From contig JACROV010000052.1 of assembly GCA_016214285.1 (NCBI GenBank), positions 1 to 36,570 on the forward strand: a stretch of 36,570 nucleotides of DNA, written 5' to 3'. The DNA comes from Candidatus Omnitrophota bacterium. Lineage in GTDB: Bacteria; Omnitrophota; Gorgyraeia; Zapsychrales; Zapsychraceae. This document shows, one piece after another, positions 1 through 27,000 of this stretch; the first letter of the stretch is position 1, and the number at the start of each line of letters is the position of its first letter. The notes beneath the pieces are model-generated. The model was not told the origin of the DNA and searched no databases. It saw only the letters and a program-made list of their open reading frames with translations. Both the position numbers and the translations under genes were made by a program.

Positions 1-3000
1 AAAAACGTCTTGGCCCACAGCCAATAATTAAACAAGGGATCTGTCGCGGCGCGGCTGCGGGCGCTTAAGTAAGCCCAAATATCAACCAGGTTCAACCGAA
101 TCTTACCGTCGAAGCCGGGCACTGGAACAATTCCGGCAACCTTGACAATCCTGAAAGGCGCGACTATACTTGAAACGGATATGAAAGGATTCTTTACCAA
201 TCCAAGGCGTGAATTAATCGGCAAAAGTTTTGTGAATAACATTGTGCCGATTTTGTTGGTTGCAACTCTTGCCACTGATTTCTTCCTGAAAGCAACTTTA
301 GATATCAAGATTATTTCCTGGGCATTAATTATAATTTTATATATGCTCGGTGTTATGATATTTCCGAAGGAAGGAGAAAAATAAAATGTTTTTAGCAGGT
401 TTATTGGCGGTAGCCACCATCGCCGTGGTAATCGGCGTATGGTTCGGGATCGATCAATACCGCGTCCGGCATCACCACTGATCAAATCACCTCTTGATCT
501 TCCGCTCGGCGCGTTGGTCAGACGGGCCAGACCTTTCTGAATGCCGCTCTGCGCCAGGACGCCCAAAGAAGCAACATAATTGACACGACCATTCGGATAT
601 GATAACCTTGCCGATAGAATGATATCAAGATTCTGGACAAACAAACGACTGGAAGCATTAAGCCGAACATCTCTAACATTATTCCAGGGATTTCTCATAG
701 CAGGAGCTTTGGGAGGGGTGTTCGGCAAAATCGAATCCGCAGGGATTAAAATCTTATTTGTAATTATAACGACAGGCTTCCTTACTTTGGGCATCCTGTT
801 TGCCGATAAACTGAATAAGGAGGATTGAAATGTTCGCGCTGATAACTGCCTTGGTAATCCTGATAATTGTTTCGTCCTGGATCGCCATCGAGCAATACCG
901 GATAAAACATCACCATTAATATTTCCACCGGATGTGGAGACAGGGCCCGCCATCATCACAGGGCTTGACCCGCGCTGTCCTGTAACGTCCTCTTCCTTGT
1001 TGACCTCTCCCACTGCGCTGACTTGCGCCAGGACGCCAAACGAACCAAGCCAATCCAAAGTTAAGCCTGCCAACATCACCGGGCTGGAGGCCGGATCGGC
1101 TGAATTCGGCGCGTTGGTCAAGCGGGCCAGAGCTTCGGAGATGCCCTTTTGCCTCAGAACTCCCAATCGATTGGCCAGGACATAAACAATACCAGCCGCC
1201 ACGACAAACGCGCCAGCCACCGCGACGAACGCCCCGGCAACCGCGTACGCCCCGGCGCCAATGGCCGCCCCCGCGAAGGTCCGCGGGTTATTGCCGGTTC
1301 TCTCAAGCCCTCTATGTATGATATTTTCTTGATTTCTTGATAAAGGCGCAGTATTATCTTCTACAGAAAGGAGGTGGAAAAGAATATGTTTATCCGCATT
1401 GTCGTTCATCCGAACATCTGTCATGGCAAACCCACGATCCGGGGCACGCGAATCATGCTCTGGCAAATCCTTGACCTGCTTGGAGATGGCCTCACCTTCA
1501 ATGAAATTATTGCCGATTATTTTCCTCATCTCACCAAAGAAGATATTAAGGCGTGCGTTGACTACGCGAACTGCCTGGTGAAAAACGAAGAGGTTCATCT
1601 TGCCAAAGAGACCAAATAAAGTCGAGTTTATCGCTGATGAATGCGTGGGTTTGCCCACCATAAAATTGTTGCGCCAATTAGGATATGAGGAATTATGAGA
1701 ATTACTTATGACCCCCAAGTCGACGCCCTGTACATCCGTTTCGAAGAAGGAACGGTCACCACCAAACATCTCGCCGAGGGCATTGCCGCCGACTACGACG
1801 CCCAGGGACGGCTGGCCGGCATCGAAATTCTCGATGCCCTCAAGCGCTTCGGCGACCCCTCGACTCTCAAAAAGGTCACCCTGGAGGAAATCGGCCTCGC
1901 CGCCTGAAGCATCATCATTGATCGCCTCTGCTCCGTCCATCGTCCTTCGTCCTTCGTTCTTCACGGCCTCAAAATTCGGCGCGTTGGTCAGACGAGCCAG
2001 ACCTTTCTGAATACCGCTCTGCGCCAAGATACCCAATTGGGCCTTTTGTACGTAACGCTTGACACTCTCGGAAGAAAAAATTATACTTACTTTGTCTACA
2101 AAGAATTCGACTGGAGGATAAATGAAGACAGCAAATTTAGACAATGATTCATTTGTCAGAGAAAATCTGGAACGGCTGGTAAAGAAATATCCGCGCCGGA
2201 GGATCGTCATTTGTAACGGCGAAATCTTCACCGGCGATGACGCTGTTAAGAAAGCGAGGGCGAAATATCCCGGCTCCGTCCCTCTAAGCCTTCCCATTCC
2301 CGCTCCTGAAGAATTCACCCACCTGTTATGAAGAAGATCACCTTCCCTTACAAAATCTACAAAAAAGAATCTTATCCTATTATCAAAATCCTCATGGAAG
2401 GACCCGACGGTCCCCTGGAGACGGAGGCCTATATCGACACCGGGGCCAGTATCTCTATTTTTCAAACGGCCATTGCCTCGGACCTGGGGATAGATTATTC
2501 CGAAGGAAAAGTCAGTTATACCATGGTTGGTGACGGTGGCTTTATTCCAGTTTATATCCATACCATTCCCATACGCATTGGCCACATAAAGTTTCCAGCC
2601 CGCATCGGCTTCTCCCCGTCCCTGGGAGCGGATTTCAATCTTCTGGGCCAAAAGGATATTTTCGACCGTTTCGTCGTCAGCTTTAACAGACGAAGAGGCG
2701 TCGTTTCCTTCCAGCCTCATTAATCCGACGGAACTACGCCGTCTCGCATTTCTCCACGCATACCGCTTGGCCGTCACATAAACAATCCCCGCCGCGGCGG
2801 TCGCGTTTAATTCCTCATCGAAAGATTCAGTCGTAACCGGGCTGGAATTTCTTTTAAGTTCTCTGTAAATATTTTGAATCTCTCGCGGGATCTCCACATA
2901 TTCGATAAAGCCTCTGCCTTGCGGGCCGTAGACGTCCGGTTGCAGACGGTAAACCTCGCCCAAAGCCATATCCAGATGGTAAACGAATTCCTGCTCATCC

Positions 3001-6000
3001 ATGCGGCGTACATTCGGGACATACGGCGCGAAGCTAATGACCTTGAGACTCGACCACTGTTGATGGGCGGACTCTCTGATGATTTTGTTAAAGGTCGCGA
3101 CGGCTCTCTTCTGAATAACGGGATGCTGGAAGATCAAAATGCTTTGAGGAAGGTAGGTATTCTCCAGAATTCTTAAGGCATTACGGATATTATCTTCGGA
3201 ATTGGTGGAGGTCGTATCAAGAGGCAGGATGTCTTCTTCGTTTACACCGTTGGCAAGCAGGATCTCTTTGAATATCTCGGCCTCGGATTTTCCTTCCAAG
3301 TTTTCTTTCCTGTGCCCGCGCTTCACAAGATTATCGATCAGCCGCGCCGTCCCCGGCCCTATACCGCCGGCGATCAAAATCTTCTTAACCAAGCCCTGCT
3401 TATAAACCTTCGCCGCGGCCTCCGGCACCTCAACACGGCTGTTGCCCAGGGTCAACAAAAGATCAACCTTTTCGATGCCATACGCTTCTTGCAACGCCAC
3501 TTTATTCAGAACAGACAGATCTCTCTGCGCGAGGAAGGTAATCAACATTTGAAGTTTATCTTCATTCCAACGGGTAACCGGGCTGGAAGTTGGATTATAA
3601 GAACTATCATAAAGAATTGGTTCAACTGGCTTTGGACGTTCATCTCTAATTACTGTCCTATAACCAGAATTAAATCCTGAAACTAATTTTATTGAATTTA
3701 ACCCGCCACTTAAACTTTGTCCCTCGATTATACCGCCGTGTGATAAACTGACGTTAACATCCCCAGTCACTTCAACATCGACGTTTTTACCCTGATACCC
3801 GCCCCAAATAATCTCACCTCTACCCTTCCTGTCAGATGAAAGCTTGGCATTCTTTAGCACACCTTGATTTCTAATAGTCATCTTTGCATTTCCAACAATA
3901 GTATCCGCAATGCCTCCAAAATTATTAAATAGGGTTATGCCCTTGACTACCACTTCCAGCATACGATGGGCACGAAATCCTGTTGCACTGTTCATCAAAG
4001 GCATAACCCTATTATTAAATTCTGCGTCAACATTTACATCTCTCATAACCGCAGCGACTATGCGACCTGCTAACCGATCCTTAGGCCCAAGGCAAACATC
4101 TTTTTTATCAGCAATGATTAGGGCGCCTCCCCTATTTCCTAAATCCCAAACGTTTATGTCGACAGTTCGCCCATTCTTCGCATAGATTTCGACGCCTGGA
4201 TAAACAAATGTCCCCTTTCCGATCCTGATCGCAATATCATCTTTCTCGTCCTTTGACGTAAAAACCTTTCCTGCCCGACTAATATAAACTGTACTCTTTT
4301 GTAAGATCGTATTTAAATCTCTAGCCTCTTGTATTGTGTCAACCGAGAATACCTTTGGTATATCCTGAGTCTTTTTAACCGCGTATTCATCTTTTAACTG
4401 CGGGACATTTAATAAACCCGACGCACCCAATCCCCCCGGCACACATTCTACTTTAACAGCCTTCTCCTCGACACTCACTTTAACAATATCCGACGTAATA
4501 AGTTTTTTCCGGATATGATTCTTAACTTCTTCATCGACAGTCACGCCATCATAAATATAAACACGCTGCCCCTGCCAGAGCTCCAGGTCAACTGCTACAT
4601 GGATGCCCTTGTTGTGCTCAGAGACCAGAAAAACCCCGTCAAGCTTAACGCCATCGGCTACCGTGATAGGATGGACCGGGCCTTCTTTAACACCTTTATG
4701 CTGTGCAAGCCCGTTACGAAATTCCGCACCCTTTCCAATAACAACACCGCGCCCTTTTCCTTCTTCATCTTTTTGTCTCCACCCGCCAACAAGTTCATCT
4801 TGGCCGCCAATTAAACTTGCATTTATGATCTGGGCTTCGGAGGATACTATTGATTTAAAAATCTTTGATTGCTGATCAACAGCAACATCTGACCCAACAG
4901 CGCTCATCCTTGCTTCACTATTCCCCATAATTCTTGTCCGGTCACCAACTCCTCCATCATCCATTTCAATCAAAACAGAACCTTCAATTTCCACACCATC
5001 GCCTATCCGTGGAACATTCATTATTTCCCCGCCTTTAATAATCTTAACATTTTTCCCAATAACCATTTCCTCTACAATCAACGTATCACCCAGCCACTCA
5101 ACACGAGCTTGTCCCTGACTCCTTCTTAAAGAAATAAAAGCATCTTCCATTACCAAACCTTCATCGATACTAAGAACCAATTTCTCCTGGTTTTCTCCCT
5201 GAAATCTTATCTGACTTCTATTGCCTTTTACGGTCACTGAACCGCCTAGTTCAATATGCCCATCACCAATAATAAATACATGTGAACTTAGGTCGGGACT
5301 AACAGTCTTTCCATCATTCACAACCAGATTGCTTTTATCAGGGCCACCTGAAGCAAGAAATCCTGAATGGGTAGATCCCTCTAAGCCACTCTTATGCTCA
5401 AGCAATCGAATCAATTCCCTATACACATATTCCCTTAATTCTTCGTCTTCTAAAATATCGGATACTGCGATAAACTGATTGTTCGTTTCAATTGATCGTT
5501 CCCGTATATTCGGGCGCAAACGCGAAGCAATATCTAAAACAGCTTTTAATCCAATTTCCCGCAATGCGACAACAAGAGGATCTAATGTTAAACGCCTGTT
5601 AACATCCCCAAGAAAATTCTTATTATTTGCATTCCCCAAAATAAAACTTTTTGCCAAATAATCATTAACAGAGACTACACCGTCATAATTAACGGAAAAA
5701 CTGGTAGTATTATTTTCTCTCCCCACATAAATTACATCTTCTTTGAGTCTTTTCTGATAGACCTTATCAAACTGTTTGTTGGCTAATTCTGTGTTTAGCA
5801 TGTCTTTTAGAAGTTTCATTTCAGAATAACGAACAATGAATGTGTATCCCGATGGCAGAATAATAGGCTTGGTTGGGAAAGGTCCATCTTGAGGGACTCC
5901 CTGAATCTTTCCATCCAAGGATTTGATTATTTCTGAAATCGGGTCTTTATCTTTTAATATGCCTTTAAGTGCTAAAGAAATCGCCGCATATCCCGTATCC

Positions 6001-9000
6001 CAATATTTTTCGAATGCATTAATAATATTGATAATGTTCTTTTGTGGTACACGTCGTGCATGAAACTCGTCAACGCTTACCTCAAAAGCTATATTTAAGG
6101 GTTGCTTTCCTGCTTGTATCCTTTCCCTAAGAGCCTCTACTAATTGATTAAGAATTTCTTCCGTACGAGATGCGTCTACTGCAAAATAACCGCTGGTAAA
6201 TATCTTGACATTCGGCACTTCCGCTTCGCGTATAATCCTTAATACAGTGGCCATCTCGGTCAGGGGTTCCCCACCCGATAGCAAAAGACGAAAGACCTGA
6301 TTGTCTTTAATAAAAGAAAGAATTCTCTCTATAGCTTTAGACCCTAATGAAATTTTTTGTTTTTTATTTTTAACTGAACGCATAAAACAAAATGCGCATC
6401 CCACGGAACAATAATTCGTAAGAGCTATGCATATAGGATCGTACTGCTTAATCCTATGCGGGACATTAAGCGGGATCCAGGAAGTAAACACGTCGTCGGC
6501 TTCCGGCATAACTTCTTCAAATAGTTGCCCATCATGCCTAACCCAAACCTGACTGTTCTCTTTGACCAAAATAGGTTTATATTCTTCTTTCACCTTTTTA
6601 TTTAAGAGCGCGAATCCTCGTTGAGGCAATCCCGTTGAAAGAGTTTGCTGCATCGGGATCATGGCTGTTTGTCCCCGTTGCAACCTTTTCATTGCATTGA
6701 CATAATCATTGAACCTCATATGTGAAAATGGATAATTAAACAAATTATTTCGCTGTGATTCACCAAGATCCCATCTGCCGGCATCGATCACAAGTGGTAT
6801 TCCTGTCTTCAAAGACGGGCGTTCACCAAAATCTAAATTAACAATATTCCAATTCCTTCTAATATTATCCGGAGCAAACTTTTCAAACAAGTCGACAACG
6901 ATCTCTCGATATTGGGACGCTGTTGTTTCAACGGTGATTGTTGCCAAGATATCACGCCCTATCCCTCTTTGAATTCTTGCGGCAAGGTCTGCAACCATAA
7001 ACTCGCGTGTGCCCGCTTGAAACATTTCTTTTACTAATGGGACTCGCAAAACCTCGCGGCTATCCCCGCCATCAACAACAGCGACAATCAAAAAATGCTG
7101 ATGTTCAGAGTTTCTGAAAGCTGTTAAATGATTGGCTTTTGCCCAAAATTCATCCCACGCTTCGCTTAATGGTTCAGATTTATATCTTCCCGATGTAAAA
7201 ATATCTTTTAAATATAATTCATCACCGCCATTCAACATGCTTGGAACGATTCTATCTTTTCGTCTTACAATAAAATGTCCTATAGCCAGAAAATCTAATC
7301 CTTCGCCGTAAAAATACGTATTCAGCGCATCTTCTGGTGTCTCAACAATCGGGCCCCGTTTATTGAAGGATGTATTAAGCGCCCCTGGAACACCTGTACG
7401 TTTTCCCAGTTCGCCGAGCAGTGACCAATAAAGAGGATTTGCTTCACGAGAAACTGTTTGGGGTCGAGTCGTTCCATCTGCTGGATGAGCGCCGGCCCTG
7501 ATCACATCTTTTTTATCTTCTGCCACAGGGAAGGCTATCGTCATAAAAGGAGAAATATTTACGCCGTCTAAAAATTCTGCCGCTCGTTCTTCTTGAATAG
7601 ATAAGGCCGATGGACGCCAGGGTTCTCGATTCTTGATCCGGTTAACTTTGATGTTCCCTTCCGGATCGTTTAACCTGTTTAAAATACTCCTATTCCCCAG
7701 GGCTCGTGGGCCTAATTCTGCTCCTCCCTGGAACCAGGCAACTGTTTTATCATTCACTATCGCATCCGCGACTTCTTTAACCAATTGCTCATCACTTTCA
7801 ATATGCTGATAATCAATACCTTTAACTAAACCGAAACGATCCAATACACTTTGAATTTCTTCATCAGAATATGTTTTCCCGAAAGATATTTTTCTAACTT
7901 CATTTTGAATATGCAAGCCATACTCTTCGTCTGCGACCGAAAGTGCGGCTCCAATAACTGTTCCATCATCAGCCGGATAGGCTGGTACGAAAAATTTATC
8001 TGCTTCGACGGTGCCGCTCTTAATGAGTTTGCCGTTGGCAGAAATGTTAAGCGCAAGGCCTCCCCCCATCACAACGTATTTCACGCCCCGTGTTTCGGGA
8101 TTTTCATTGAGATAATACGAAACCATATCGTTAATAACTTGTTCTACCCGTTCTTGCATTGCAAATGCCAAATGCGCCCTCTTTCGATCTTCCGGTGTCA
8201 AATCACGCCCAGTTTTCCCCTCAGGCATTGGCAGGACGATCTCACCTAACCTTTGCAAAAAGTTTTCTGAGAAGCCGATCCCGGGAAGAGTTTTTATTTT
8301 TGTTAATTCAAATTTCCCCTGATTCATTTCAATTTGTCCGGTTTCCCGATTAAACCATATTAATTCTTGCATCATTTGTCTTAATCGAGATACTGCGTTC
8401 TCTTCGTCCGCATTTCTTGGCACCCCATAAGTGGCATACCCCATAACTTTTCCTTCATCATTTCTTCGATATCCCAAGTAAACCGTAATGATGTGATAAA
8501 AATGTCCTAAAGAATGCGTGAACGGGGTGGTGCGGGCGACCTTCTTTAATTTTCCATCCTTGGCCAGCCAAATCGTTGTTGATTCATCTTCTCCCTGGCC
8601 ATCAATCGATGCGACCAAAGTCGGTTCTGTGAATCCACTGGCATAGTATGCTGCTGCCGCATGCGCTTTGTGGTGTTTAACAAAAGTGACAGACGGGATA
8701 TATCCCGTACCGTAACTAAGCGCGGTATCTTCCAAAAACGATTGGAATTGATCTGTGTTATATCGATTATAGGATTCCTTAAAAGGAAGGCCGTGTTTCT
8801 GTCGATAATGATAATGCGGCTCTCTGCTGTTAGGCGTCTGCCGGTAAAAGTTATAATCATAAGGGATGGCGATATGATCAATGTCTTCCCAAGTAATCCC
8901 GTAAGCATCTAACAAATAACGCGTTGCTTCTTTAGGAAAGTACGCTACTGTGTGTTTATCTGAATTCAAACGCTCTTCTTCAATGGCCCCAAGAAGAACG

Positions 9001-12000
9001 CCGTCTTTGATCAAAGCCGCGCCTGAATCATGGCCTGGGCGCGAGACACCAAGCACATACACTGGTTTATTTCGTTGCCTTATCTCATCACGATAGTCCC
9101 GGTGATAGATCTTTACAGCTACCTCGCTACAAGTGGCGCAATGTTTAACATAGAATCTATCCTTTAATCCGTGACGTTCATTTATTTCCTGTTCCTTAGG
9201 ATGCACTTTGACTGCTTCTGTCTTACTGACTATTGTTAATTCCCCATTTCGCCAATCAGCTCTTTCAATGCCGCTCACTTCGGATAATTTATGAAGAAGT
9301 CCGGTTATGTCTGCCGCCGGATCGAAGATTTTCAACGCGATATCAAGGCCTTTCCCTTCAAATTCAAACATATTCGCGGCAGAATTCACATCCAATGTTT
9401 CATCCATCGGCTTATCGTCACCTTTTATCGGTGAAGAGGCATCGACAATTAAGTCAACCCCTTTGCTTTTCACAATAATCTTGTTTTTATTCAAACTGAC
9501 ACGAACATGTGTCACCTGAACAACCGGCTGGCGGCCTTCCGGCATTCTGAGCCTCATGGATTCAAACCGTTCGAATAGCGCGCGCAATTGCTCGGGCGTG
9601 GCCTCTTTGATATAAGCAACGCTGATGTGATTGATATCCTGAACGAATGCCTTTTCATCCTGTCCAAGACGACGTTCATTCATTCGGCGCTGGGCAGCTT
9701 GTTTGATACGCATAACCGGCGGTGCATAGGTCCTGAGCTCAAGCACCACGCCGAAGTTATCCATCAAATGAGGCCCGGCGATCTCATATTCAAACTTCGT
9801 CATTCCTCTTGTATCCTCACGAAGTTCAGAAATTATGTCATCGACAGTGATGGAAACACGCGGCCCCACTGAATTCGTTGCCAATGTCGTGTGGATCTGC
9901 CCGAGCGGCATATACTCGGCCTTGGTCCGCCCGGCATCATCGAGCACTTCGCTGATAACAGCTTGAACTTTAGCCGCAACAACTTTGGCAGATATGGATT
10001 GATCAAACGGGATGTTAATGAATATCGACTCTTCCACAGGTTTGGCATTGATCTTTTTGAAGACTTCGATAACGACTTGGTCGGTTTCCAGAATAAGCGC
10101 CGTCTTGGCGTCTTTGGCCCTGAAGTTTTCATCCAGCTTCTTTTGATAAGCTACAGCCTCGAGATTCTCCAGCGGGCTGGAGGACAGACCGCCGGCTGAA
10201 TTCGACCGACGTCGGTCGAATTGGCCATCCGCTTCTATCCAGGAGAATTCCCGCAGCGGCCGGTTGACAATTCCCGCGCTCACTGATATAGTGGCTGTCA
10301 AAAGGAAAATGAAATGGTCAAGATCGAAATCAATTACCAGCAAATCCTTAAAGCCGTTAAAAATCTTCCCTTGAAAGAGCGCGCCCGGCTGGCCAGAGAA
10401 ATTCAAAAAGACACCATCCAGGAACAATGGCGTCAGATACGATCCGAAATTATGTCTACCCCCAAGGCCAAAATCTCCCGCGACGAGGTAAAAAGAATTA
10501 TCGACGGGACGCGGGAAGAAATATATGCCAAAAGCCGCGGCCGTCGTTGATACCAACGTATTGATCAGCGCCCTTTTACGCGGCACATCCGCCCTCGCTG
10601 TCATCGATCTTATCGCAGACAAAACCATCACCCCGGTCATCTCCGAAGATCTCTTCAGGGAATTTTCCAAAACGATTGTCAAGCCAAAATTTCTTAACGC
10701 ATTCGACCCTTTAAAATTAACCTTTCTCCACCGTTTGATTAAAGAACGGGCGGCATTTGTAAAATCAAAGGCTTCCATCCTTGCCTGCCGGGACGCTAAA
10801 GACAATCTCCTGCTTGAATGTGCCGTTGATGGTTCGGCGGATTTTATTATCACCGGCGACAAGGATCTGCTTGTGCTGAACCCTTTTCGCGGCATCGAGA
10901 TCCTGACGCCTCGCGAATTCGTCAAACGGATCAAAGAATAAATCCGGGCAATCTCTTCCCCAACAAAGACCTCTGGCCTTCGGGAGGAAGCGGCCGCTCT
11001 TTCTGGTGTCTGGTCACTGTTGACTGGTGACCGGACTTGAGACAGACTCGTCCTTAAATCCGAAATTCGAATTTGGTCATTTGAATTTGTCTCGTATTTT
11101 CCGCCTGAGGCGGATCCGCCTTTGGCGGACGTGCTTCGCGCTTCGTGCTTCTCGGTCCTTCCAGACAGACTCCAATCGTCGGACGCACCTCTGGAACCTG
11201 ACGTTGTCAAAATTAATTTTCCAACAGGAATTGTGCCGGCGGCAGGCGGGTCGCGGAAGCTTAACTTGTGGCCGCGTCTGTTTTCAGCCAGCAGATAAGC
11301 CCCCCTGTATCCGCGCTGACGTGTTTTGTTGATATGTAATATTCCCGGGACCGGGATTGTCGGTATGTCAATATTGAAAATATTGATATTACTATTGAAG
11401 CCGGAAGTCTGTTCATTCGCTGTCTGCGGTAAAGCCGCTGGATCCTGGGGAACGGCCGCGGGGCTGACCGGTATCGTTTGTGTTGTCTTAGCCGTAAAGC
11501 TGAACTTCTTACCGTTGATTATCATCGAAGCGGCGATATCAGCATCAGCCTTGAGGTCTTTGGCCGAAACAACCACTCGCGTACTCTGCTCATGCTGCTT
11601 GAGCCACTTCGCCCAAACTTCATCGTTACGATCAATGATTGGCGAAGAGGATGTCTGGATGACCGCGCCGACCGGGGAACTCGTCGTTCGTGTAATGTTT
11701 TCCTGATCAGTGGACCCTGTACCCTGCGACCGAAGGAAGTCCCCGTCAGGGGAGACCCTGTACCCTTCCTCCATCGCTTCCTTGAGGCTTAAGACGATCC
11801 TCTTGATCCTCAAGAGCGTCTTCGCCCATTCCTCGAAGCGCTCAAACCACACGGACATCTTGAAGGCTTTGATGGAAACGTTGATCTTGAAAGGATCCGA
11901 CGCGGCGGACGCGCGGCCGCTCAAGAAGCCCCGCAGATCGATCAAGGCACGCTTGATCTGGATAATAATACCGGAGACTTTCGGGAGGGAAGGAACAAGC

Positions 12001-15000
12001 GTCACGCTCCAGCCGTTGGGAGCGTTAGTCAGACGTTCCAAAGCTTCTTTATTACCAATTTGCGCCAAAACGCCTAACTGCTTGGCCACGACATAAACGA
12101 TGCCCGCCGCCGCGACGAACACTGTAGCCACCGCGTACGCCCCGACGCCCACCGCGGCCGCCGCAACCGCCGCGACGCCCAAGCCGAGCAAAGTTTCGAT
12201 GGTGCCGAGGCCGGATTGGTTTTGCGTATTATCAACAATGTCGGTAGCTTTTGGTTTCTCTTCCACCTTCTCAATGCCTTGGGACGCGATGACCATATAC
12301 GCCGCTTTGCCGATGGTCCCGATATCTTCAGAGATATTGTAGTCCTGATTCCCGGAGAAAATCCTCAACCCAAAGGCGCTGTCCGTATCTTTACCTTTCA
12401 TGCTTGTCGTTGACGGATTGAGCGCGTACCCTCTGCGGAAGGCCTCCAACGCCCGGCCATAACTCATGCGCATATGGTTATACCAGCCTGTTCCAATAGA
12501 TTCCCCGGCCCCGCCGCCTAATACATGCGTACCCAGAAGATTCTTCGCATGTCCGTATTCGATATAAGAAGGACCGGATTCCGTAATGCCATTCTGCGGG
12601 CCGCGGATAGGAATCTTGGAAATCATATTAGGATGATCGCGCATATCCTGAAGATCTTCACGGTAGGCATCCAAATTATAGACTTGCGTGCTCTTGTCAT
12701 CCATGACAATGAGAGAATCAAGATAAGAGGCCTTCTTATCCATCGTAATGCCGGTCAAAGCGGCAGATTTGAACGGAAATCCGGTACGCACATAAATGAC
12801 CTTCGTTTGGACACCCGTCATGATTTTAATTAATTCACCAAGCTTTTTCCTTTGCGAAAACTCGCTTGTTGCTTCTAACGAAACTTGCGACGGTGGAATG
12901 TTATTTTCTTTATTCTTTTCTGGCTCATATTTTCCATACTTATTACTCGCCAAATAAAGAATAAATTCTTGAGGTAACCCCTGTTCCTTAACAGCTAACA
13001 TCTGTTCCACAAACCCGATACCGGTCGGATAAGAATTACCTCCAGGTGTTAACTTGCTCATGATCCACCGGCGTAATCTCCAAGCCTCTAACAGGAACCA
13101 CCGATCATTCTCGGCGTTCTCTCCCACCACATTAATCATCAAGTTATTCTCTGTTGAAGCTTTCTGCCGATCAATACCATGACGGAATATTCCGTTGGCT
13201 GTTATTTGATGCGAATGCCAGATAGTAACCCCAGATCTTGCTTCCAATTCACTCAATTTTCTTAACCAGTATTCAAACTTGGCGACTATCTTTCCACTCA
13301 CCTCATACTTGTCGTCATAGAATGTATCCAGTCGCAATCCTTTCGAATTCAACCGACCGGACAATCCTTCACCCCATCCCAAGATCATATCCGCACCCTT
13401 TTCCGCATTACCAATTGCCGGAGACTTCAGCGTAGGACCGCCAACATAAACCTGCGCCATGGTTCTTCTCTTCTCTATTTCCCTTGACTGGTCATCCATG
13501 CGATGAGTATCCCGTTCTTTGCCTTTACCTAAATATCCTTCGATCAAATTCAAATATCTCTGGGCATAAGCCTGGCTGCCTTCATCGACCGTACTGCGGA
13601 CTTCATCAAAGAGGTTCTCAACTCTTGAGACCTGATAAGATGTCATTTGCGGTTCTTGCTCTTTAAACAGTGCTTTTAATCTTCCATACTCTTTCTGAAG
13701 TCCTTTATATTCAAGATGCCCAAGCCAACGACCCAAGGCATAATAAATGAACAGCCCGGCGAGAATGAACCCTCCGGAGATTAAGAAGTCAGATGTAAAT
13801 ACCGACAAAATAGCGCCGCCTGGCCCTTCCACGCTGACCATGTGATACACCGGCACCCAGAAAAGCCAAATTAAAGCCATTAGCGATACAACATAAGACC
13901 GCACGAATACCGACTTGAGCCTGTTTTGCTGCTTATAAAGACCCAGGTATCTGTCAATGGCTTTCCACTGATTATCTGTAAAAATCGTTTCAAAAACTGT
14001 AAACAGCGTTAAATTATTGGTCTTGTTATAATTCTCCAAATCTTCCTTAAACTTATCATTTACTCCTCTAAATTCGCTGGTTAAAAGACCATCTTTATCC
14101 AAATAGTTTTTCTTAGTTAATGCTTTAACGAGGTTCTCAATATTTGTTTTTATTTCCTCTGCTATTCTTAGCTCTATTTTCTTCTTCGCTTCAGGCGTCG
14201 TTTGGTCAATACGAAGCTCTTTCCTTATTTCCTCTTCGCGCTTCTTTTTGTCTCCCCCATTGACCATAACGTCTAATAATTCCGCCGCAACAAAATCACC
14301 CCTTCCCTTAGCCTCGGTAATGGCCCCATAATTAATAAACCCTTTTCTCTTCTTGAAGAAGCCAGGCATGTTGCGGATTAAACCCGGCTTATTTATAAAA
14401 TTACGAATGGTCTTAAACTGATATGCCCAGGCCAATAACAGGACAGCACCGATAATAAATGTAACAATGGGGATATACGGGGCAAAAGGAACAAAAGTCA
14501 CTACCCCAGTCGACATCATTAATTTAAATGTCATAATCGTGGCTACCCCAGCCAGCCATGCACCAATCTTAACCGGGAGCGTCAATTTGCTGTATTTGGA
14601 TTCCGGCATATTCATGACAAATATCCCGATCAAAAGGCCCGACGTCAGGATCAAAAACGGATACAACAACAACACATTCATGAAAATAGTATTAAAACTT
14701 ATCGTAAACAGATACAGGGCAAAGAGGCCCAACCCATAACCTAACCAAGCCACTCTCATATGATGCGCCCCTTCATCTTTCATCCGTTCGCTGACATCCA
14801 CCGCCAAGTAATCCGTCTCCTTAGCCCCTGAAATCGTGAACTTCAATGTCTGGAAGATCCTCTGGCCTTGCACATGGATGACCAGCTGATAGGGGAAGCG
14901 AATCATGTCCTTGCCGCGGTTGATCAGCCAATGGCTCAACCCCTGGGTGTAACCGCCGGTAAATAATCCGACAAGAATGATGGCTGGCATAACCAACGTA

Positions 15001-18000
15001 CTAACCGCAAAGAAATTTCCTGCCGCAAATGCCACAACAGCACCTGCCAAGGCAGCCGTCTTGCTGAAAGATTTTCGATCCAAATCAGCCACAAGACCGA
15101 AGAGCGTAATCACCTGGTTGAAAAATATCCCCATGATTACCAGTAAAAGCACAACCCCCTGGAACGGCGAGAAATTGAATATGGTTGATACGGCGAGAAG
15201 GATGATCAAGTGCATCGCTGTCCGGGCACTGGTAAAGAACCGCGAGTTATTCGCCCTGACCTCTTTAGCAAACACGGAAAGTGGCCCCAACTCATTGACC
15301 TCCTGAACCACCTTATCCCCCATATTCTGCGGAAGACCGCCGGACCACCGGATAAAGGCCGACCACCAATCAGCATGCGAGAAGGTCTCGCGCATCTTGC
15401 GGGCGTAGGCCTTGGTCAATGTGAAGCGGATACTCTGGTTATCTAACCAACCGTCCAATAAACCACTAATCTTAGAGATAACCTTACTATTAATAAAGTG
15501 AAGTATTCGCTGTTCAAAAATCATCAAGACGGCCAACAGGCCGGCGATTCCATAAAGAACAGGAATCGAGAGCCCTCCAAGGCCTGTTGTCAAACACAAG
15601 ATCGCGAAAGCCAACCCCAGCGTTCTAAACGGCGTTGTCGCAAAGAGCGCTGCCGCCGATCCTAAGGCAAACCCCCAGCCAACCCGCATCAAGGAAACCG
15701 CGAGGAATAACATGTATCCGCCCGCAAGGATCTTAAAGAGGCTGCCTAGGCTGAATTGCGCCAGGAAAAACAGGTGAAATGTTTCAACCCCCAGAAACGT
15801 GCCAAACGCGACAAACCCCGCAAGGCTCGCGACATAGAAGAATATCGCTCCCAGCATGCCAGCCCATCCGCCGGTAAATATTTGTGGACGATAATGATAC
15901 CGCAAGGTCAAGGCCAGCACGGAAACCGGCCGTGTCTGGATAAAGAAGCTGCGGCCGTTTAATTTATCCAGGATATTCTTGACCATCCAAAGCGGCGCCA
16001 TTCCAAACACCGTTGTCATCCTCTGAACAAATCCCGCCTTGTCCTTTGCAAGTTTCTCCGTAATCGTTTTCGCTGTCGGTATGTTGCGGATGAATTTAGT
16101 CACTACAGCCGTCTGGATAAATGTTGTGAGGACATTGATGGCCAACGGCATGATAATGCCCAATAATTCCATAAAAGCCGTCAATCCGACCAGACCGATC
16201 AAGGCCTGCATCACCCAGACAATATAAGGAATAACCCCAACGAACATCACCGGCAAGAGTGTCCATACCTGCGATACCAGGATAAAGACCGCTGCAATCG
16301 CCGCGAGCCGGAAGCCAAAAGACAGGAAGATCAAGATCGTCGGCATCCTTAACCAGCCCCACTTTGCCTCAAAAGACCGCACGCCCTGCGCGCCAGTTAA
16401 GTCTTTAAATCTAAATGTCTTGGCCCAGTTGGCGAGGATCGCAAAAAGGAGCGCTCCGGCGACTAGCCCAACAATCCAAGCTAATAAGGTCACATGAGCC
16501 GGAATGCCAAGAATAGAAACAAGATTTAAGACAATCGATTCCTTGCCGATCAGCTCAGTGACACCGACAAGGATGGAGACGGCCAAGAAACCGTACTGGA
16601 TGAACGACCGGCCCGCACGAATGGCTAATGAATGGATTGGCCTGCCAAATAGACCTTCACGCTGTTTGAATCTCTTATAAGCACCTTCTATGCTATCCAT
16701 GAGGGATTTGTTAATGCCAAAATCGTTCTCCATTTTATCTTTAAGACCTTTCCATTCCTCCTCTATGCCCGCCACATCCTTGTCTCCAATGAGAGATTGC
16801 AGATCATTCAACCATTTAAGCCGGTCTGCGGATTCTTTCCCCACATCATATAATTTCAAAGGCGCTGGTAATGGCGCAATGGCTTTTTCTTTAAGCAATG
16901 CCTCAATGGCGTTGCTAATTCTTTGTCGCTCCTCATCATTTTGAGCATTGTCATAGGCATAGATCAATGTTCGCAACTTGCCGGCTAGCTCTTCCAGGAA
17001 GGCGTCAAACCGGGCCACGACCTGAACGCTGTCTTCCGTCAAAAAGCTGTCCTTCTTCCCGGCCTTGATATAAAACACGAGGCGCGTCGCTAAATACGCC
17101 ATTACCGCGTCAAATCCGTTGAGCCATTCTTCACTACCGGAAATAAGGGTTTTCTTTTGCTCTTCAGTCGGATTACCCCATCCCTTCACTTTCGCTCTCC
17201 AATGGATCAACAGCGCGTAGATCGGAACGACGTAAGCTAAATAATTGGCCTCCTGCACACCTTCGCTCAGGACCAAGGAATCCTTGCCTTCCTCCAAGGT
17301 ATTTAATATTCTTACTCTTTCCTGCCCATTGGCATCCTTTGTCCGCTCAAACCGCAACATGACTTTGAGGATCCTTCGCTCAATGGCCATATCCTTCTCT
17401 GCTTCCGTAAAGGCTTCTTTGGCCACGGAACTCTTGCGTTTTCTTGCTTGCAGCATTCTCTTGATAAGGCCCCAGATCGGTCCGATAAATAAAGACAGGA
17501 CAAATACAATCATGGCGACAGTGACAACCGCCCGGTCAAATGAACCGAACAATTTACCAAACACTTTATTGTCTTTAAATCGCTCATTGGTATTAAGATC
17601 TTGTTCAATCTGTTCAGCGGCCTTGAATTCGGGCCTGCCGGCAATATTTGACCGTTCAGCGATCTTTTCGCGCAATGAAGGTCCGTCAATATTTTGCCTC
17701 AATGGTATGCGGACCGGGTCGCCTGTGTTCATATCCGTATAAGAAGTCTCTTTATTTCGTAATATAACTCGCCCACCGGTTATTACGTCAATCCAGCGGT
17801 TTGTTTTATTAAACATCTGTTTGAGCACTGGCGTCACGTAACCGTTTTCTTCGACCACAATAAGACCGGTTTCGCCAATCGTCTCAATATCTCTGCCGGA
17901 GGCGTCCTTGACAGACAACGGCTTGGGATAGAACGGCCAATCCGCGTTGTAGTTGATTATCTTGGAAGAATCAACCAACGGCTTGATAAACACCGCCGTC

Positions 18001-21000
18001 GGCTGTTCGTAGCCTTCCTGGTACGCCCAGCCGCCGGCCAGATCATACATGCCCCAGCGCAACCCTTCCTTGCCCATGCGGCCGTCTTCGGTCTCATAGC
18101 GCATGGCTAGGCGGCCGCCGAACAACTCGACGGTCGTGTTGTAGGTATGCGCGATCCAGTCGCTTGTGCTCAATCCAAAGAAGTTCCGGATCTTCGCGAA
18201 CCGTCCTAACTGCATATATTTGTCCGGATCGATGCCCTTGGCAGAGTCATGACGGTACGCGAAGCTTTCGGCGGCCAGGCGCCGGTCGCCTGTTTCGGGA
18301 TAAACGGGGAAGGTCACATCCCGTGGCGCACCCATACCCCAGCCGGTTTCTTTACTGATCGCCGGGAAGGAGGATAATATCGCGCGCAATTCACCTTCTC
18401 CGCTCATGATTTCCGAACGCGCCCCGAGCGGCACTTCGAACAGGAAGTTTCCGTTGTTCTCTTTAATAAGCCCTTCCAGGAAGGCATACCGCGCATTCTC
18501 CAGTCGGCCATTAAGCGCCTTGTTCGATAAGTCGGAAGCAATGCCTCGCTTGGCATCGAAATGGAGAAGTTTGTTCTCAAGATCCGTATTATTGGAGAAG
18601 GAATAATGCTTCTCTTGACCATCAAGCATAACCATAAAGAAGGTCTTGGTCGCGATATCGTAAATACCCCATTTTAATTTGTTGTTTTTGTCCCGGCCCA
18701 GCTCAAAGATCCTGTAGAATTTCTCATAAACTCTAAGGTCCCCTGTTACGAGTTTCTCTAACCCATGTTTCTCGAATTCCGCAAATTCTTTCAGCGTCAT
18801 CACGACCGGCACGCCATCGACCGTGCCCAGGTGCGTCTCCTGGACGTTTCCGCGCGCGTCGCGGATTTCTTCATAATCCACCCGGCCGATCTTGCCGTCC
18901 TTCAAATAAAAGATCATCTCGCCGCGGTAATGGATCCTCTTCTCGCCATTAAGGAGCAGGGCGACGTCCACAGCATTGACGTCGAAGATGGGTTTCCCGT
19001 CGGCATACGTCAGCCAGCTGCGGTCGATTAAATTACCGCGGATGTATTTGATATTCCCTTCAATATATAACACCTTATCTTTGGCCACTTCCTGGGAAAC
19101 AGGCACGGCGTGCACCAGATAGGTCTCGGACTTACTGGCCAGGCCGATGACGCCGGGGATGCCCTCGTAGAACGATTCGGTCACTTCGTTGGGGATAAGA
19201 TTGCCTTCGGCATCCAGGCGGCCCTTGTAACTTTCAATGATGCGCCCGCGGCCGTCTTTGACAATCAGCCGATCGATGCCGAGGAAGTCTCTTACCATCC
19301 GGACATGCAACCTGCCGTCTTTGATGGCCTGGGTCGTCGACTCGGAATAAAGCGGGCCAAGTGCGGGGCTGACTCTCTTGTCCCCGTCCAGAACGTAAGT
19401 CGTTTCCGTCGTCGGGACCTCATACCGGCTAAAGCCGTCATATTTTGGCTCACTCTCACGCTGGCGGACAAATTTGCCGTTCTCTATTACGCCGTCGTAT
19501 TTCCTGATGAAGCGGCCATACGCGTCGTCTTCTTGCTGCCAGACCTGGCCGAAGAGCGGATTCCCCGTCTGGCTTAACACGCTGCCATCCTCCTGATCGA
19601 CACGAATGATCTTCGAGCTCTGGAGCTTGCGGCCGTCGTAAAGAAGATAGGATGCCCCTTCTTTGAGAGGATTGCGGTCCAGACCTAATGTCGCGCTGTC
19701 TTTGAAGACCGTCTTGATATCATGCCGGAAGTCTCCGGCGACTATCTCTCCGTCAAACTTCTCGGCCGTGTCGCCGCGGACGTCGATGACCTCTTCCCAA
19801 GTGAGCCAATTGTCGTTGACCTTGAAGATGCCGCTGGTCATCCGGACGGTCACTTTGCCGGTAACAGGATCGTAGGCCGTGACCTCTCCCGTTGAGAAAA
19901 GTTCGCCCTCAGCCGCGTAGGCCCGGAGAACCTCGCCATTATGCTCCATCGCATAGGTGCCGTCTTCCATAATGCGCGTCTCGGCCCGGTCCCCGATAAA
20001 GTCCGGCAGGCCCAGCGCCTCCCTGTCTGTGCCGTTGTAGAAAAACTCCGTCTTCTTATCCCTGGTCTGGCTCCACATCAATCTATCCGGCCACTTGTCC
20101 TCATCTTCTCGAGGCTCCAGGAAGGTCTTGATCCCGGTTTTGTAAACACCGCCGTCTTTATTCAAATCATCCCGCTGAACGACCAAATGCGTCTCTCCGG
20201 TTGCGCTATTGGTTTCTTCGCCGATCTCTCTGGAAACGGCCACAGGACGATCGTCAATATTCTGCGGAAGAATGAACGGCAACGGCGATTGGATCAGCGC
20301 TCTCTTCTCTGTTTCTTCTCTCGGCTTCTCCAGTTCTCTCTTCCCGGCCTCTAATGCCTCCAGGCGATGAAGAAGATCTTTGATCCTTGCCTGCTTTTGT
20401 CCCGTCGCGGGCGCCTGGGGCGCTTCCCCTCGCTCAGGAGCAATCACGGCAGGCGTCTTCTCTTTCCACAACTGCTTGAAGACATCAAAAACTTGTCTCG
20501 GGTTCCGGTCGATATCGACAAATCCCCACCATTCCTCGTTAAACTCGTTATCATAAAGCCCGCCCGAGCGAATTCCTGTCCGATCATGCTGCGAAGGATT
20601 GCCGGCCTTCCACCATTCATCCCCGAAGGTCATGAATGTGACCCCCAGGAAGACATCAGGATCGGCATTCTCGACGAGATTCTTCCAAATCGTCTCGTTG
20701 ACTTTCGCCTGCATGGCGGCATTTTCCCGGCCTGCCGCGCCGTCAAAGGCATCCGTTCCTGTCTCGGAGATATACAATTGCAGATGACCGGGGATCTCCT
20801 TGTCTCGCAGCATAGTCTTCCATTCTCTTATAACATCCGACGGATTGCCGCCGCGATAAACATTAACGCCCCAGACATCCACCGATGGCGCTTTCTTCAC
20901 GATATTCTTGCCGGGAACCTCTCCGTGCGCCGTGGCAACTTTGCGCCCGGGATCAAGGCGTTTGGCTGTCCGGGCCGCTTCTTCCAACATCTTGTACCAA

Positions 21001-24000
21001 TTATCAACATCCCCACGGAACCATTCCGGATGATAATTATATTCATTGCCGAACTCCCACATCAAAATAGCCGGATGATCTCTAAACTGCTGGATGTATG
21101 TCTTGTAGCCGCCCCTGGAAATATCCGGGCCCGCCACTTTGCGATCATCATAACTTGGGAAATTAATAATGACTTTAATGCCGTTGGCGGCCAAAGTATC
21201 CAGGAATTTCCTGGAGGTAATCGGATAGTACGTTCTGATCGTATTAGCGCCCATCTCCTTAAGTAAGGCGATATCACCCATATGCTTATCCCAATCGACA
21301 CCATCCCGTCTATCCTTGCCCTTATCTACTGCCGAATATGTCACGCCGCGAATCGGTATCATTTTATTCAGATCGTTGCCGCCTTTGCCTTCGTTCGGTT
21401 GTTCCTCGGCCTCGGCTGCAGACCCGAAAAGCCAGTCCGACACGACCCCCGCCGATTTCCTCATGTCTTCAATCTTTCCCAGCACGAAAGGCATGGTCAT
21501 CGGCACTGCCGGCGTGGTCACGGGCGGCACGACAGGAAGCATAGCCCCGGGCTGAGAACCTGGCAAAGAAGCTTGCGGCACAGACGGCTGATCATCCAAT
21601 GCCCCATTCTCCTCAAGCTCTCTTAATTCTTTCCTAAGTTTCTCCAGCTCTGTGTCTATTCTTTCTATCGCCTCCCGCCGCTGTTCTGTATCCTCCTTGA
21701 GCGGCAGCCCGCCTTTCTCATCCATGTGATAAATCTTGGACGCACCGTCTCCGACGAGAACCTCTATTTCGTTCTTGGCAAGATTGATGCGCCAGACCGT
21801 CTCGCCCTCGATATTCTTTTCGATCTGAACATGGTCTCTCATCAGCCTGTGCCGTGTCTCCGGCTCCAGAATTTGTTCCGGCAGGCGATAATACGACTTG
21901 CCGGTTTTCTCGATCAAAAGATAGCGCGGCGCGGTGAATTCGCGGATAAAGTCGCGGCCCTCAACGCCCAAAATAAGCGGCGCCTCTTTCGTTTCTTGCG
22001 AATCGTCTCCCTTGTCTTTGTAAGCAACAACGAATTTCCGCACACCCCGGATGCCTTCAATCTTCCTGGCGCGGATAGATTCATAAACGCGGCTTTCTGT
22101 CTGAACCTCGTTTCCTTCCAGCAGATTCTGAATACCTTCCTTCGTCTGTTCGACGAATCCCTCCCCGCGGACAGGAACATACCCATAACCCGTCTGAAGA
22201 TAATCAAGGACCTTGCGGATCGTCTTGACATTGGCCTCAACGATGATCGGATACTCGCTAACAAAGGTGTCACCCAGCACTTTAAATCTCTTGATCTCAT
22301 CCGGCAGGATGACCAAGGCCTTGCCGTCGCCGAGCGAGACCACGGTGCCGTCCTTGCGCGTGAAGAAAAATCCATAGCCGGCCTTATACCGGATGCCGGC
22401 CTTGGCCCTCTCCTCTTGAGGAATGTCCTTTACCGGCCGGGCCACGCTCAACTGTTGTTCGCTCAGGCCAATCAGGCTGTCCTTGAACAACCGGCCTTCA
22501 TCAAAAAAGATCGCGCCGCCGGCAAAAGGCGACTCTTCATCATAGAAAATTTGCCGGTCGCGCTCGATGGCCTTCGGGCCCGGGATGAACGTCGTCTCCG
22601 GTTTCCCGGCGACCGTCGTTGTCTCAAGCTTGCGAAATTCTTTGAGAGCCTGTGGATCGCCTTTAATCTCAACCTTAAGCCTGCCTTTCTGCGGCGTATC
22701 TTCAAAACCTAGCGGCGCGACCGTTTCATCCAGCGGATTTTGCGGGTTGTAAGGCACCGGAATGGAAAGCGGCTTCTTCCGGGCCTGCTGCAAAACGGGC
22801 AAAATCTTCGCGTAATCATCGCCGAACACCTTTGACATCGCATCCCGTGTCGCCTCCAAATTCGCCTTGACACGTATTTCCACCGGATTGCCCTGCGCCT
22901 GCTCGGCCCAACCATTCTCGATTAATTTCCTGGAGACCTCGATCCAGTCAAGCCCGATCTTCTCAACATCGGATTTGGCAACAAATCCTCTTTTGTCCTT
23001 ACCGTCGCGGGATTCCCCTGTCCACAGCCGTTTCACCGTCCCCCACAAGCCGTCGTCCTGATTTTTGTCCCCGTCATCCCTTCCGGAAAGGCTGAGCAGG
23101 TCATACTTGAACGAACCAAAACCGCCGGAGGAGTTGCTGCCGAGATCAATCTCCCAGCCATTCTGACGATAGCTGCTGTTAAGCGTCATGCTGTATTTAT
23201 CATTTTTATATTCACCGCCGACGGTAAGGTTCGTATTTTCGCCCTTATACAGCTTCACGCTGGCGTCATATTTTTCGCTGTCCTTTGTCTTGGTATAACC
23301 CGCGTCCCAATCTTTATACCCTAATTTGAATTTGGTGTACGGATCCAGGGCAACGCTTTGCTCGGCGCTGTAACGAATCTGATGGTCCTTGACCGGCTCG
23401 ACCGTGCCGTGGGCCCCGGCCGTAATGGACCTCGTCTCCTCGCCGAAGAAGAGGTTATTCATCTCCCATTGATTGAATCTCCTGAAAGAAAGGGTCAGCG
23501 AGGTGTTTTTCGCGACCTCATAATCCAGGGTGACCTTCTCCATATCAACGGTATCCTGGCTCTTAAGGGTAACGATGTCATCAAAGACCGTGTCTCCGGA
23601 ATACGAGTCTTCAATCTTCAGGCGGGCGTCGCTATCGGCGGATGAGCGGGCGATGCCGGCCTCCAGCTTCACCCTGAGCTTGGGCAGGGCGTTCGCCACA
23701 GGCGTATCCCAGTAACCCGTCACCGCGCTCGTCTTTTGCTTCCCGTCCCCGTTGACCTTGAAAACACCAAGCAGGCCGCCGTAGACGTCATCCTTGTTGT
23801 AGGTGAGGCCATCCATGACGAGGATGTAATATTCCCTGTGGTTCTCGCCTGTCGAGGAATCCTTCATCACCCAGCGATCATTCTGTATAGCGCCGGCACC
23901 GACGGAATGTCTGATATTCTCCCAGGCCTCAGGTGTGAGCTCAGTCATGACAAATACGTAGGCATTCTTGCTGGCGTCGTCGTGCTGCGCCTGGACGGTG

Positions 24001-27000
24001 CCGAAGAAGACGTCCATGTCCTTCCCTGCGAACTGGGAGATGGCAAAGTGCTTGTTGTTCGCCAGCTTCTCCTTGTCGCCCTCCTTGGTCTTGAAGTATT
24101 TGACCGCGGCATTCTCCACGCTCGTCTCGCCGTCTACGATAACCTTTTGAGCGCGCTCCCCTTTCAAATACGCGTCACGACCCATTATCACGATGCCGGC
24201 CTCTGGCGGGGCGCGGATAAGCCCGGCAAAGCGGGCATCCAGAGAGGCCTTGATCTCCTCCTCCTGCGCCGTCAGCTTCTGGCCGTCCAGATGAAGCTCT
24301 TTATACACCGATTCTTTCCATGCCTTGACATTGCCCTCGAGGGATTCATGGGCGCGGATGATGGCCTGGAGAGCCTCCTGAGCCTCTTTCTGCTGACGAT
24401 CAGCATCCTTCTTGGCCGCCTTGAACACCTTTGTCGCAATAAGCTTCTTCTGCTCAGCCCCCTGGACCCCACCTGTGCCGAGGCTCTCCAGCAGGTTCCC
24501 CAGCGGATTGTTGCCGTCACCCATATAAGACTTGATTATCTTCAGCGCCTTGAGGGCCATCTCTTTCTTGAACTTCCTGTCCTCGCTGGCCTTCCGGAGC
24601 GTTTCATCCGTGAACACATTATCACCAAAGCCGTTAATCTTCTTGAGGATCTCCAGCCGTTTGCTCAGCAGGTCGTATTCAACCTCACGGTTCTTCCGCT
24701 TGCGCTCAATAATCTGTGCGTCGGACTCCGGCCGCGGGGTGCCGTTTTTATCCGCCAACTGCAGAGCCTCATCCGCTTTCAACTCTGTCTCATAAAGGGG
24801 CAGATACACGTCACGCTCATAGATAAGGCTTGCCTTGAGCTGTTCATAATAAGGTTTGGCCTCGGGACGGATTTTCGGATTGGCAATAACCTTGTCTATG
24901 TAAGGAAGGGCTTTCGCCGTGATCTCCGTGTTGCGTTCTTGAAGGTATTTCCTGGCCTTAGCAATGGTAATAACTAAAGGATCATCCGAAGTGACCGGCA
25001 CTATCGGCAGGCCCTTATATCCGGGGAATTTGCTGGCATCCGGGATCCGCACATTCTGGGACCGGTTCAGCATATCGATATCCTTTGTCAGAAGCTCAAT
25101 CCGTTTTTCTTCAGAGCGGATCATCCTGTTGATGATCTCTTCCGGGGTTTCAAACGCCACATTGCCACCGTATCTGTTCTTCGCCTCATAGACCCTCAAC
25201 TGATCTTTAACCAATTGCCTGTTGTCCTTTTCGGCGGAGAGCCACTCTTCCGTCAGCCTCAGCATATCCTTGGTAAAGGCATTCCATGCCCCGTTGCCCT
25301 CAGAGGCCTTGATTGCATTCTTCCAATAGCGGGTGCCTTCGTCAAGCCTTGCAATGCGCCCTATTCTCTTGATGCCGCGCGCCTTCACCAGTTCTTCACC
25401 TATAATCCCGGCCATCCAGTCGTAATAACCATCGTCTGTGTCAAAATATTTCATGGCCTTTCTAAGATCATCTTCGGACATCAGAATATTTTCATAATCC
25501 TTCGTCCTGAGTTTCTCCTCCAGTTTCTTGATATTGTCTTCGGATTCTTTGATTCTATTTCCCGCGGCCTCTTTCATGCCGGAAACCAGGTCAATAACGT
25601 TTCCACTACTATCTTTCACGTTGAAATACACATCTGCCAGGGAAACCGTGCCGAACGACCCGCTATTGTAATTCTTGAGATCCTCGATGTGCCGCTTGAG
25701 GTCGCCCACCTTGCTTTCGAGCGCGGCAACGTCTTCCTCGCTGAACGGCAGGCCTTTGGAGGCCTTCTCAATCAAATCTTCTATATTCTTGAATATGTCC
25801 TCATTGGTCGCGGCCCCTTTCCGTAGCTCGTTCTTTAAATCATTGAGCGTCTGGCCCGCGCCGTAATCCAGCATCCCGCTTAAATAATATTCCAGATACA
25901 ATAGGGCCGCGTCCTTGTCCTGCTGCTCGGCAATACTCTCAAACAGGCCGGCAATGGCCCTGCTCATCTCGTCAAAGCCCGCCTGGCGCTTGGCCTCTTC
26001 CAGCTTCTTCAATCCCTCCAGGGCCTTCTCATACCTGGCTTTCCTGGCCTGGAAGGCCTTCCGCGCCTCTTTCAGGGCCTCCACGGCCGCCGCCGAATCC
26101 TGTACGCGCAGATCCTTCACTACCCCCTCGAGCAGATCCTGTATAGCCTCAATCGTTACGCCATTCATTTCGCGCAGGCGTTGCGCGAGAGCAGGCCGTT
26201 TTTCCTGAGGCAAAGAATAATTGCGTCTTTCGGTAAGGATATTCCGGGTTTCGTCTGTGATGCGGGTCCGCTGGCCTGTTGTCTGATCAATCACCTCGCC
26301 CCAGCCCTCCGGCCTGGGCATGTTCACGCCGAATTCGAGGATGCCGATCTCGCCTCTTGTGGTATCGATACCGGCCCCGGCCATAACCAGGGTGGCCGGC
26401 TGCCAGCCCTTCTTAAGCTCAAATTTCTCTTCTCTCCCGTCCGGATACACCCATTTCAAGCTGATCTCCACACCATCCACCTGTAATCTGGTAACAAGCG
26501 CCCACACGTCTTTCAGATCATAGAAATACTTGACCCCGCCGGCCAGGAGGTTGACCTTGGCGAGCGGTATTCCGCCATCAGCCGGCTTCTCGACCAGGAT
26601 GCCGATTTGATCCTTGCCGGTAAAACGCTCATCCGTCACAACCTTCAATTCCTCAGGCAGTGTCCTGGTTCTTATCCTCTTGTCGGAAAGCTCAATGGGC
26701 TCTTCAACCATCCGTCCCGCGGTCTGATCAAACCGCTTGAAATAATACTTGTCCCCGTTCTTATAAATGAATCTCCGCCTGTCTGTTTGCTGGACTTCAC
26801 GATCATCCGTAATGACATACAGCACCTTAACTGGCACCTTATCTCCATCTCTGTCCTTTTTGTTCTTCAGGCCTTCCTGGCGCAGAGGAGATTGAGTGTC
26901 CTCCCTGTACGGCTGATCGCCGGCAAGGGTCCCGTCACGGTTGAGAACCACGATATTCCCTGTCTGACCGGAATATTCATGGGAGAGCCAGTAATCGTTT

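Follow-up and report, generated by a model that had tools for sequence, protein, structure and literature searches.

Giant genes are known from the phylum Omnitrophota. The portion of the published account considered here (PMC10066038) includes a Velamenicoccus archaeovorus gene encoding 39,678 amino acids, and describes giant ORFs as poorly conserved. The locus analysed here comes from the same phylum and shares the giant, multi-domain frame and the poor conservation; unlike the genes in that portion of the account, it carries nested antisense operons. In the Vibrio cholerae superintegron, toxin-antitoxin (TA) cassettes are dispersed along a long array, which they stabilise by post-segregational killing (PMC11551772). 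Those cassettes are separate integron genes, however, whereas ours lie antisense inside one coding frame, with no integron integrase. Genes embedded antisense in another gene, as here, have been described for pop/ompA (PMC7103648) and ano/ECs2385 (PMC5960689), but these are novel single cases, while the operons reported here belong to known families and recur across genera in fixed phase. In gene content and operon order they match VapBC, DUF433-DUF5615 and MazEF type II TA modules, from which they differ in lying inside a giant frame and in having lost TTA, CTA and TCA codons in a frame-specific manner.

The giant frame and its antisense genes

The stretch of DNA analysed (the window) is an entire contig of 36,570 bp from a 1.82-Mb draft genome. 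A preliminary description had reported a giant minus-strand frame passing without a stop through a run of plus-strand cassettes. This was confirmed: over positions 1-2723 the giant frame contains no stop, against 16, 40, 37, 53 and 52 in the other five frames. A true stop of the giant gene ahead of the cassettes, the objection foreseen at the time, is absent, the frame being open across the whole contig and at both of its ends (Table 1). In sense orientation it encodes DUF218, radical SAM, carbamoyltransferase, GH2-like, SLT transglycosylase and M23-like domains. Its 12,189 codons and five or more kinds of domain make it a giant gene as understood for Omnitrophota (an uninterrupted frame of more than 20 kb with several domains). 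Since the longest frame elsewhere in the same genome has only 1,510 codons in a 277-kb sample, the giant frame is a local feature and not a genome-wide property. The genomes nearest to the window by cassette genes belong to Omnitrophota/Omnitrophica, as do two relatives at family level, G029 and G009. Within its own genus we found no orthologue of the giant carrying the segment 12231-13700, and the window gave no Rfam match to structured RNA.

Table 1. Coordinates of the giant frame, nested genes, predicted promoters and repeats in the window
Feature	Position	Strand	Remarks
Giant open frame	3..36569	-	at least 12,189 codons, stop-free, open at both contig ends
Predicted promoter, membrane-gene cassette 1	142..170	+	TTGACA-17-TATACT (11/12), sequence match
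Small membrane protein 1a	181..384	+	antisense to giant, offset f2; no family match
Small membrane protein 1b	386..481	+	offset f1
Giant in-frame repeat, copy 1	504..566	-	LGVLAQSGIQKGLARLTNAP
Small membrane protein 2a	619..828	+	offset f2
Small membrane protein 2b	830..919	+	offset f1; giant-frame stops by codon usage: 4.4 expected, 0 seen
Giant in-frame repeat, copy 2	1104..1190	-	followed by an SSPV motif
Predicted promoter, DUF433 cassette	1329..1357	+	TTGATT-17-TATTAT, sequence match
DUF433 (antitoxin-type)	1386..1619	+	Pfam E 6e-23; f0, codon-aligned with giant; AGGAGG Shine-Dalgarno
DUF5615 PIN-like toxin, truncated	1600..1698	+	only first ~30 residues (cut to 32)
DUF2283	1695..1907	+	Pfam E 7e-18; f0
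Giant in-frame repeat, copy 3	1974..2054	-	
Predicted promoter, retropepsin cassette	2059..2087	+	TTGACA-17-TATACT (11/12), sequence match; before DUF5678
DUF5678-like	2122..2331	+	E 0.04 (weak alone); f2; 4-base overlap with next gene
Retropepsin-like aspartyl protease	2328..2723	+	Pfam E 9e-7; f0; DTGA motif intact
VapB15-like antitoxin	10314..10550	+	nested antisense; f0; E 5e-8, below curated cut-off
PIN_3 / TIGR00305 toxin	10525..10941	+	nested antisense; f2; TIGR00305 E 2e-23, above cut-off
Giant in-frame repeat, copy 4	12015..12104	-	differs from others mostly at synonymous giant-frame sites

Profile searches placed the run of antisense cassettes on a firmer footing, DUF433, DUF2283 and the aspartyl protease being secure by Pfam. 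The DUF5678 assignment is weak by itself, but a homologue stands 5' of a retropepsin-like protease in 12 giants. What had been called a PIN-like fragment is the N-terminal part of a truncated DUF5615 toxin, so that the window holds no intact DUF433-DUF5615 module; in nine other giants the DUF5615 partner adjoins DUF433. Similarly, the DUF4258-like partner that adjoins DUF2283 at another locus (L170) is missing here. The two membrane-protein pairs gave no family match in profile searches, and neither they nor the retropepsin-DUF5678 pair are known TA systems. A complete VapB-PIN operon at 10314-10941, absent from the earlier list of genes, combines a PIN toxin and a small antitoxin in one operon and is thereby a type II TA system (VapBC). 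Position 142, where the earlier description begins the run of cassettes, falls in the -35 box of a predicted promoter, and the first ATG is at 181.

Clear Shine-Dalgarno sequences precede the DUF433 and DUF5678 genes, and the three predicted promoters of Table 1 are close to consensus. Promoters scoring at least 10/12 were found at 15 of 37 cassettes compared with 1.4% of control places. Flank controls are influenced by repeats close to cassettes, and some cassette boundaries were set at the first possible start codon. These signals suggest that the cassette genes are expressed from the plus strand by promoters of their own. Gene callers that forbid overlaps would miss such nested operons. Elsewhere in the window, copies of a TTCGTCC-type minisatellite (1933-1962 and 33368-33425) look intergenic yet are read through by the giant frame, and further long plus-strand ORFs antisense to it (33355-33789 and 34986-35363) had no Pfam match.

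Phase and codon usage of nested genes

We denote by fN the phase in which giant codons start N bases into the codons of the nested gene. Phases proved fixed by family: VapB f0 with PIN f2, DUF433 f0 with DUF5615 f2, and retropepsin f0 with DUF5678 f2. Free copies carry many stops in offset f1, those of PIN_3 and retropepsin most clearly. Of the 31 nested genes tested, 30 avoided this offset, and for each operon a single phase leaves both genes outside it. At L174 the phases of the two genes of a DUF433 operon are swapped, and f1 is again avoided. Exceptions, all in f1, are a lone DUF433 gene (L177) and two short membrane genes in the window, 1b and 2b.

Each two-gene operon contains its own control. 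Across 27 nested operons, none of the 387 Leu and Ser codons of the aligned gene was TTA, CTA or TCA, compared with 151/510 in the partner (Fisher p = 1e-42), a share perhaps somewhat raised in the partner as its own phase favours A- or G-ending codons. This contrast shows that the giant frame is held open by selection and not by codon bias. In genome G020, ordinary genes encode 41% of their Leu residues by TTA, and 27 giant-frame stops were expected in eight nested genes; none was observed. Its nested PIN gene (f2) contains ten TTA, CTA or TCA codons, its VapB partner (f0) none. Selection keeping the giant open after insertion, one of two readings proposed at the outset, is therefore borne out by the operon control, by G020 and by the constraint on in-frame repeats described below. 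These many bacterial cases of two-strand meaning allow its cost to be read codon by codon.

Could the open antisense frame reflect genome-wide codon bias, as the preliminary description had itself asked, or chance? The three aligned genes of the first cassettes do lack TTA, CTA and TCA as claimed; their absence is not striking by itself, since few stops had to be removed from DUF433, DUF2283 and retropepsin (1.1, 1.1 and 1.7 expected, with P(none) of 0.31, 0.31 and 0.16). The original estimate of chance openness, (61/64)^900, also overstated the case. When synonymous codons were redrawn according to usage in this genome and the spacers were shuffled, the probability came to about 1e-14 for 1-2723 plus the 10314-10941 operon (which adds little), a larger value that is still negligible. 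Against bias or chance, partner genes in the other phase use the three codons freely, the nested genes of AT-rich G020 are likewise stop-free, spacers are open too, and frames reach 35,884 and at least 44,856 codons. The operon control and G020 together rule this explanation out, and we give it practically no credence.

Antisense nesting across Omnitrophota

The same gene types lie antisense in giants of many Omnitrophota genera: DUF433-DUF5615, VapB-PIN, MazF, CopG/MqsA-like and DUF5678-retropepsin. Among 84 homologues of four cassette genes, 31 were antisense in a long frame (at least 400 codons, frame lengths being bimodal), none was in sense and 53 were free. Other nested antisense genes comprised MazF with an AF2212-like partner, a HicB-like gene, two CopG antitoxins, an MqsA-like gene and DUF5647, and most of the recognised cargo is TA. 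For retropepsin, homologues were nested antisense at 11/14 Omnitrophota loci and 0/6 outside the phylum (20 public loci), within frames of 1,754-3,964 codons, which are lower bounds because these frames are open at the end of the fetched stretch. The comparison with free homologues suggested earlier set the two groups apart: no nested retropepsin contains an in-frame antisense stop, and each free copy contains 1-8.

The surroundings of 20 nested places were fetched and revealed true giants. At G045:C68 3849-111500 (L168, L204-L209) the frame is complete at 35,884 codons; numerous antisense ORFs lie in it, among them DUF433-DUF5615 and a PIN gene. Another, G020:C3 2-134569 (L210-L215, L164, L165), has at least 44,856 codons and is cut by the contig end; it lies in a GC-poor stretch (36-37%) of a GC-poor genome and contains 79 SSP-type motifs. 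The nested retropepsin at L073 (6001-6393) is a decaying cassette, interrupted by an in-frame stop of its own although the giant frame remains open there. The retropepsin at L077 (6001-6384, G040:C63) overlaps a long antisense frame at its end, and TCA codons within the copy interrupt that frame.

We then compared substitutions in the two frames. In nested retropepsins, pS was ~0.8 and pN 0.16-0.29 in the plus frame, whereas in the giant frame pN was close to pS. Within this cassette the amino acids of the giant frame are free and its openness alone is kept; the pair therefore overlaps antisense with both frames selected, the plus frame at the amino-acid level and the giant frame for openness only. 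Repeat copies of giants differ mostly synonymously in the giant frame (pS 0.275 versus pN 0.115, p = 1e-10, with pN biased downward as repeats were found by protein similarity), pointing to amino-acid constraint on the giant frame outside cassettes. Comparative genomics here provides evidence for selection that keeps giant frames of Omnitrophota open along their length, which bears on whether they are translated as a whole.

Probable acquisition and possible movement and function of the cassettes

Taken together, these data make it highly probable that the giant gene took up autonomous antisense cassettes, mostly TA modules, and that both strands have been kept readable. An Omnitrophota giant gene would acquire several such cassettes in antisense, the orientation in which a nested gene can retain both its start and its stop codon and yet not terminate the giant frame. 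A two-gene operon would fit in just the one phase with both genes outside the stop-rich f1, and at the codon-aligned offset stops would be lost by synonymous change, TTA and CTA to other Leu codons and TCA to other Ser codons. Each cassette would be expressed from the plus strand by its predicted promoter, and the giant frame, judging from its constraint, would be translated through the cassettes. Selection keeps that frame open, and the part of it within the retropepsin cassette acts as an unconstrained spacer.

In-frame direct repeats flank 10/37 of the cassettes (for example at L170, L072, L168 and L171), and since the repeats are in frame, recombination between copies would preserve the giant frame. 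Each giant has flanking repeats of its own. In G009 an identical pair of repeat sequences flanks one retropepsin and one DUF433 cassette, as though cassettes had been shuffled inside this genome. In trees, nested copies cluster, with 3 (retropepsin) and 2 (PIN) changes compared with 6.5 and 7.1 after shuffling; comparison of the retropepsin-locus flanks revealed no homology between loci. Clustering despite unrelated flanks is compatible both with transfer from giant to giant and with old inheritance in which the flanks change fast. We put frame-preserving recombination at the repeats, moving cassettes between giants, at somewhat below an even chance. Vertical inheritance from a single early entry, with giant flanks since diverged past recognition, agrees with the tree clustering and with the poor conservation of giant ORFs in the portion of the published account considered (PMC10066038), but sits poorly with repeats private to each giant and with the repeats shared by two G009 cassettes; we hold it possible, with the balance leaning against it. 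An empty site was sought in the genus of G045, where the giant segment was absent from the other three genomes and none was found, and the search for a recombinase of the cassettes was also negative. The second initial proposal, an insertion mechanism that tolerates only frame-compatible cargo, accordingly stands in part: f1 avoidance and the repeats at about one quarter of cassettes favour it, the missing recombinase and empty site do not.

An integron-like array, with an integrase moving cassettes and the 61-nt repeats as attachment sites, might be suspected from the unidirectional genes, the repeat 3' of several cassettes and a TA cargo like that of the Vibrio superintegron (PMC11551772). 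No integron integrase (TIGR02249) scored over cut-off in any of 29 genomes, however; the repeats fold no better than shuffles in an attC-like manner (z-scores -0.5 to 1.1) and most of their variation is synonymous with respect to the giant frame, which marks them as protein-coding. The absent integrase and the non-folding repeats effectively rule out integron membership, and such an array is very improbable.

Why TA modules should prevail can be answered in two ways. By analogy with the Vibrio superintegron, nested TA modules could plausibly lock a long, deletion-prone giant in place, as losing the giant or a large piece of it would mean losing the antitoxin. We regard this role as tentative, rather less than evenly likely; the truncation of one toxin and the loss of another weaken the case for it in the window. 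If true, it would help to explain the persistence of such long genes. A wider version, in which TA lineages throughout the phylum have adapted to antisense life in giants as lock operons, with repeat-mediated transfer and addiction protecting the giants, seems unlikely as a whole. Alternatively, TA modules may be selfish riders that insert everywhere, giants being large permissive targets that gain no benefit and only frame-compatible antisense insertions surviving. Survival alone would explain the bias in orientation and phase, and the unrelated retropepsin flanks and partly decayed window cassettes fit this view. Yet giants make up 0-17% of the sampled genomes, whereas 37% of homologues (31/84) are nested in them (p = 1e-5 even at 17%), a figure to be read with hits that are related and not independent, queries from a nested window, and giant shares from small sampled stretches of what are all draft MAGs. 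The enrichment suggests more than passive landing, as do nested copies that form persistent lineages. Selfish riding remains a serious contender, short of an even chance.

Finally, SSPV/SSPI recurs on the minus strand at domain borders of the giant (968-35861), with 16 SSP versus 2 expected. Its codons vary synonymously, hence it is conserved as a protein motif, which rules it out as a DNA-level insertion site; it is possibly a processing or linker motif. Recurrence at domain borders with varied codons, together with an intact catalytic motif, would suit cleavage of a giant polyprotein at SSPV junctions by the nested retropepsin. We consider this improbable: this cassette is also present in giants where SSPV is scarce or absent, and it stands free in other phyla, including KSB1 and WOR-3. 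SSPV/SSPI also marks the giants of G005, G009, G020, G026 and G029 and is rare in other genera.
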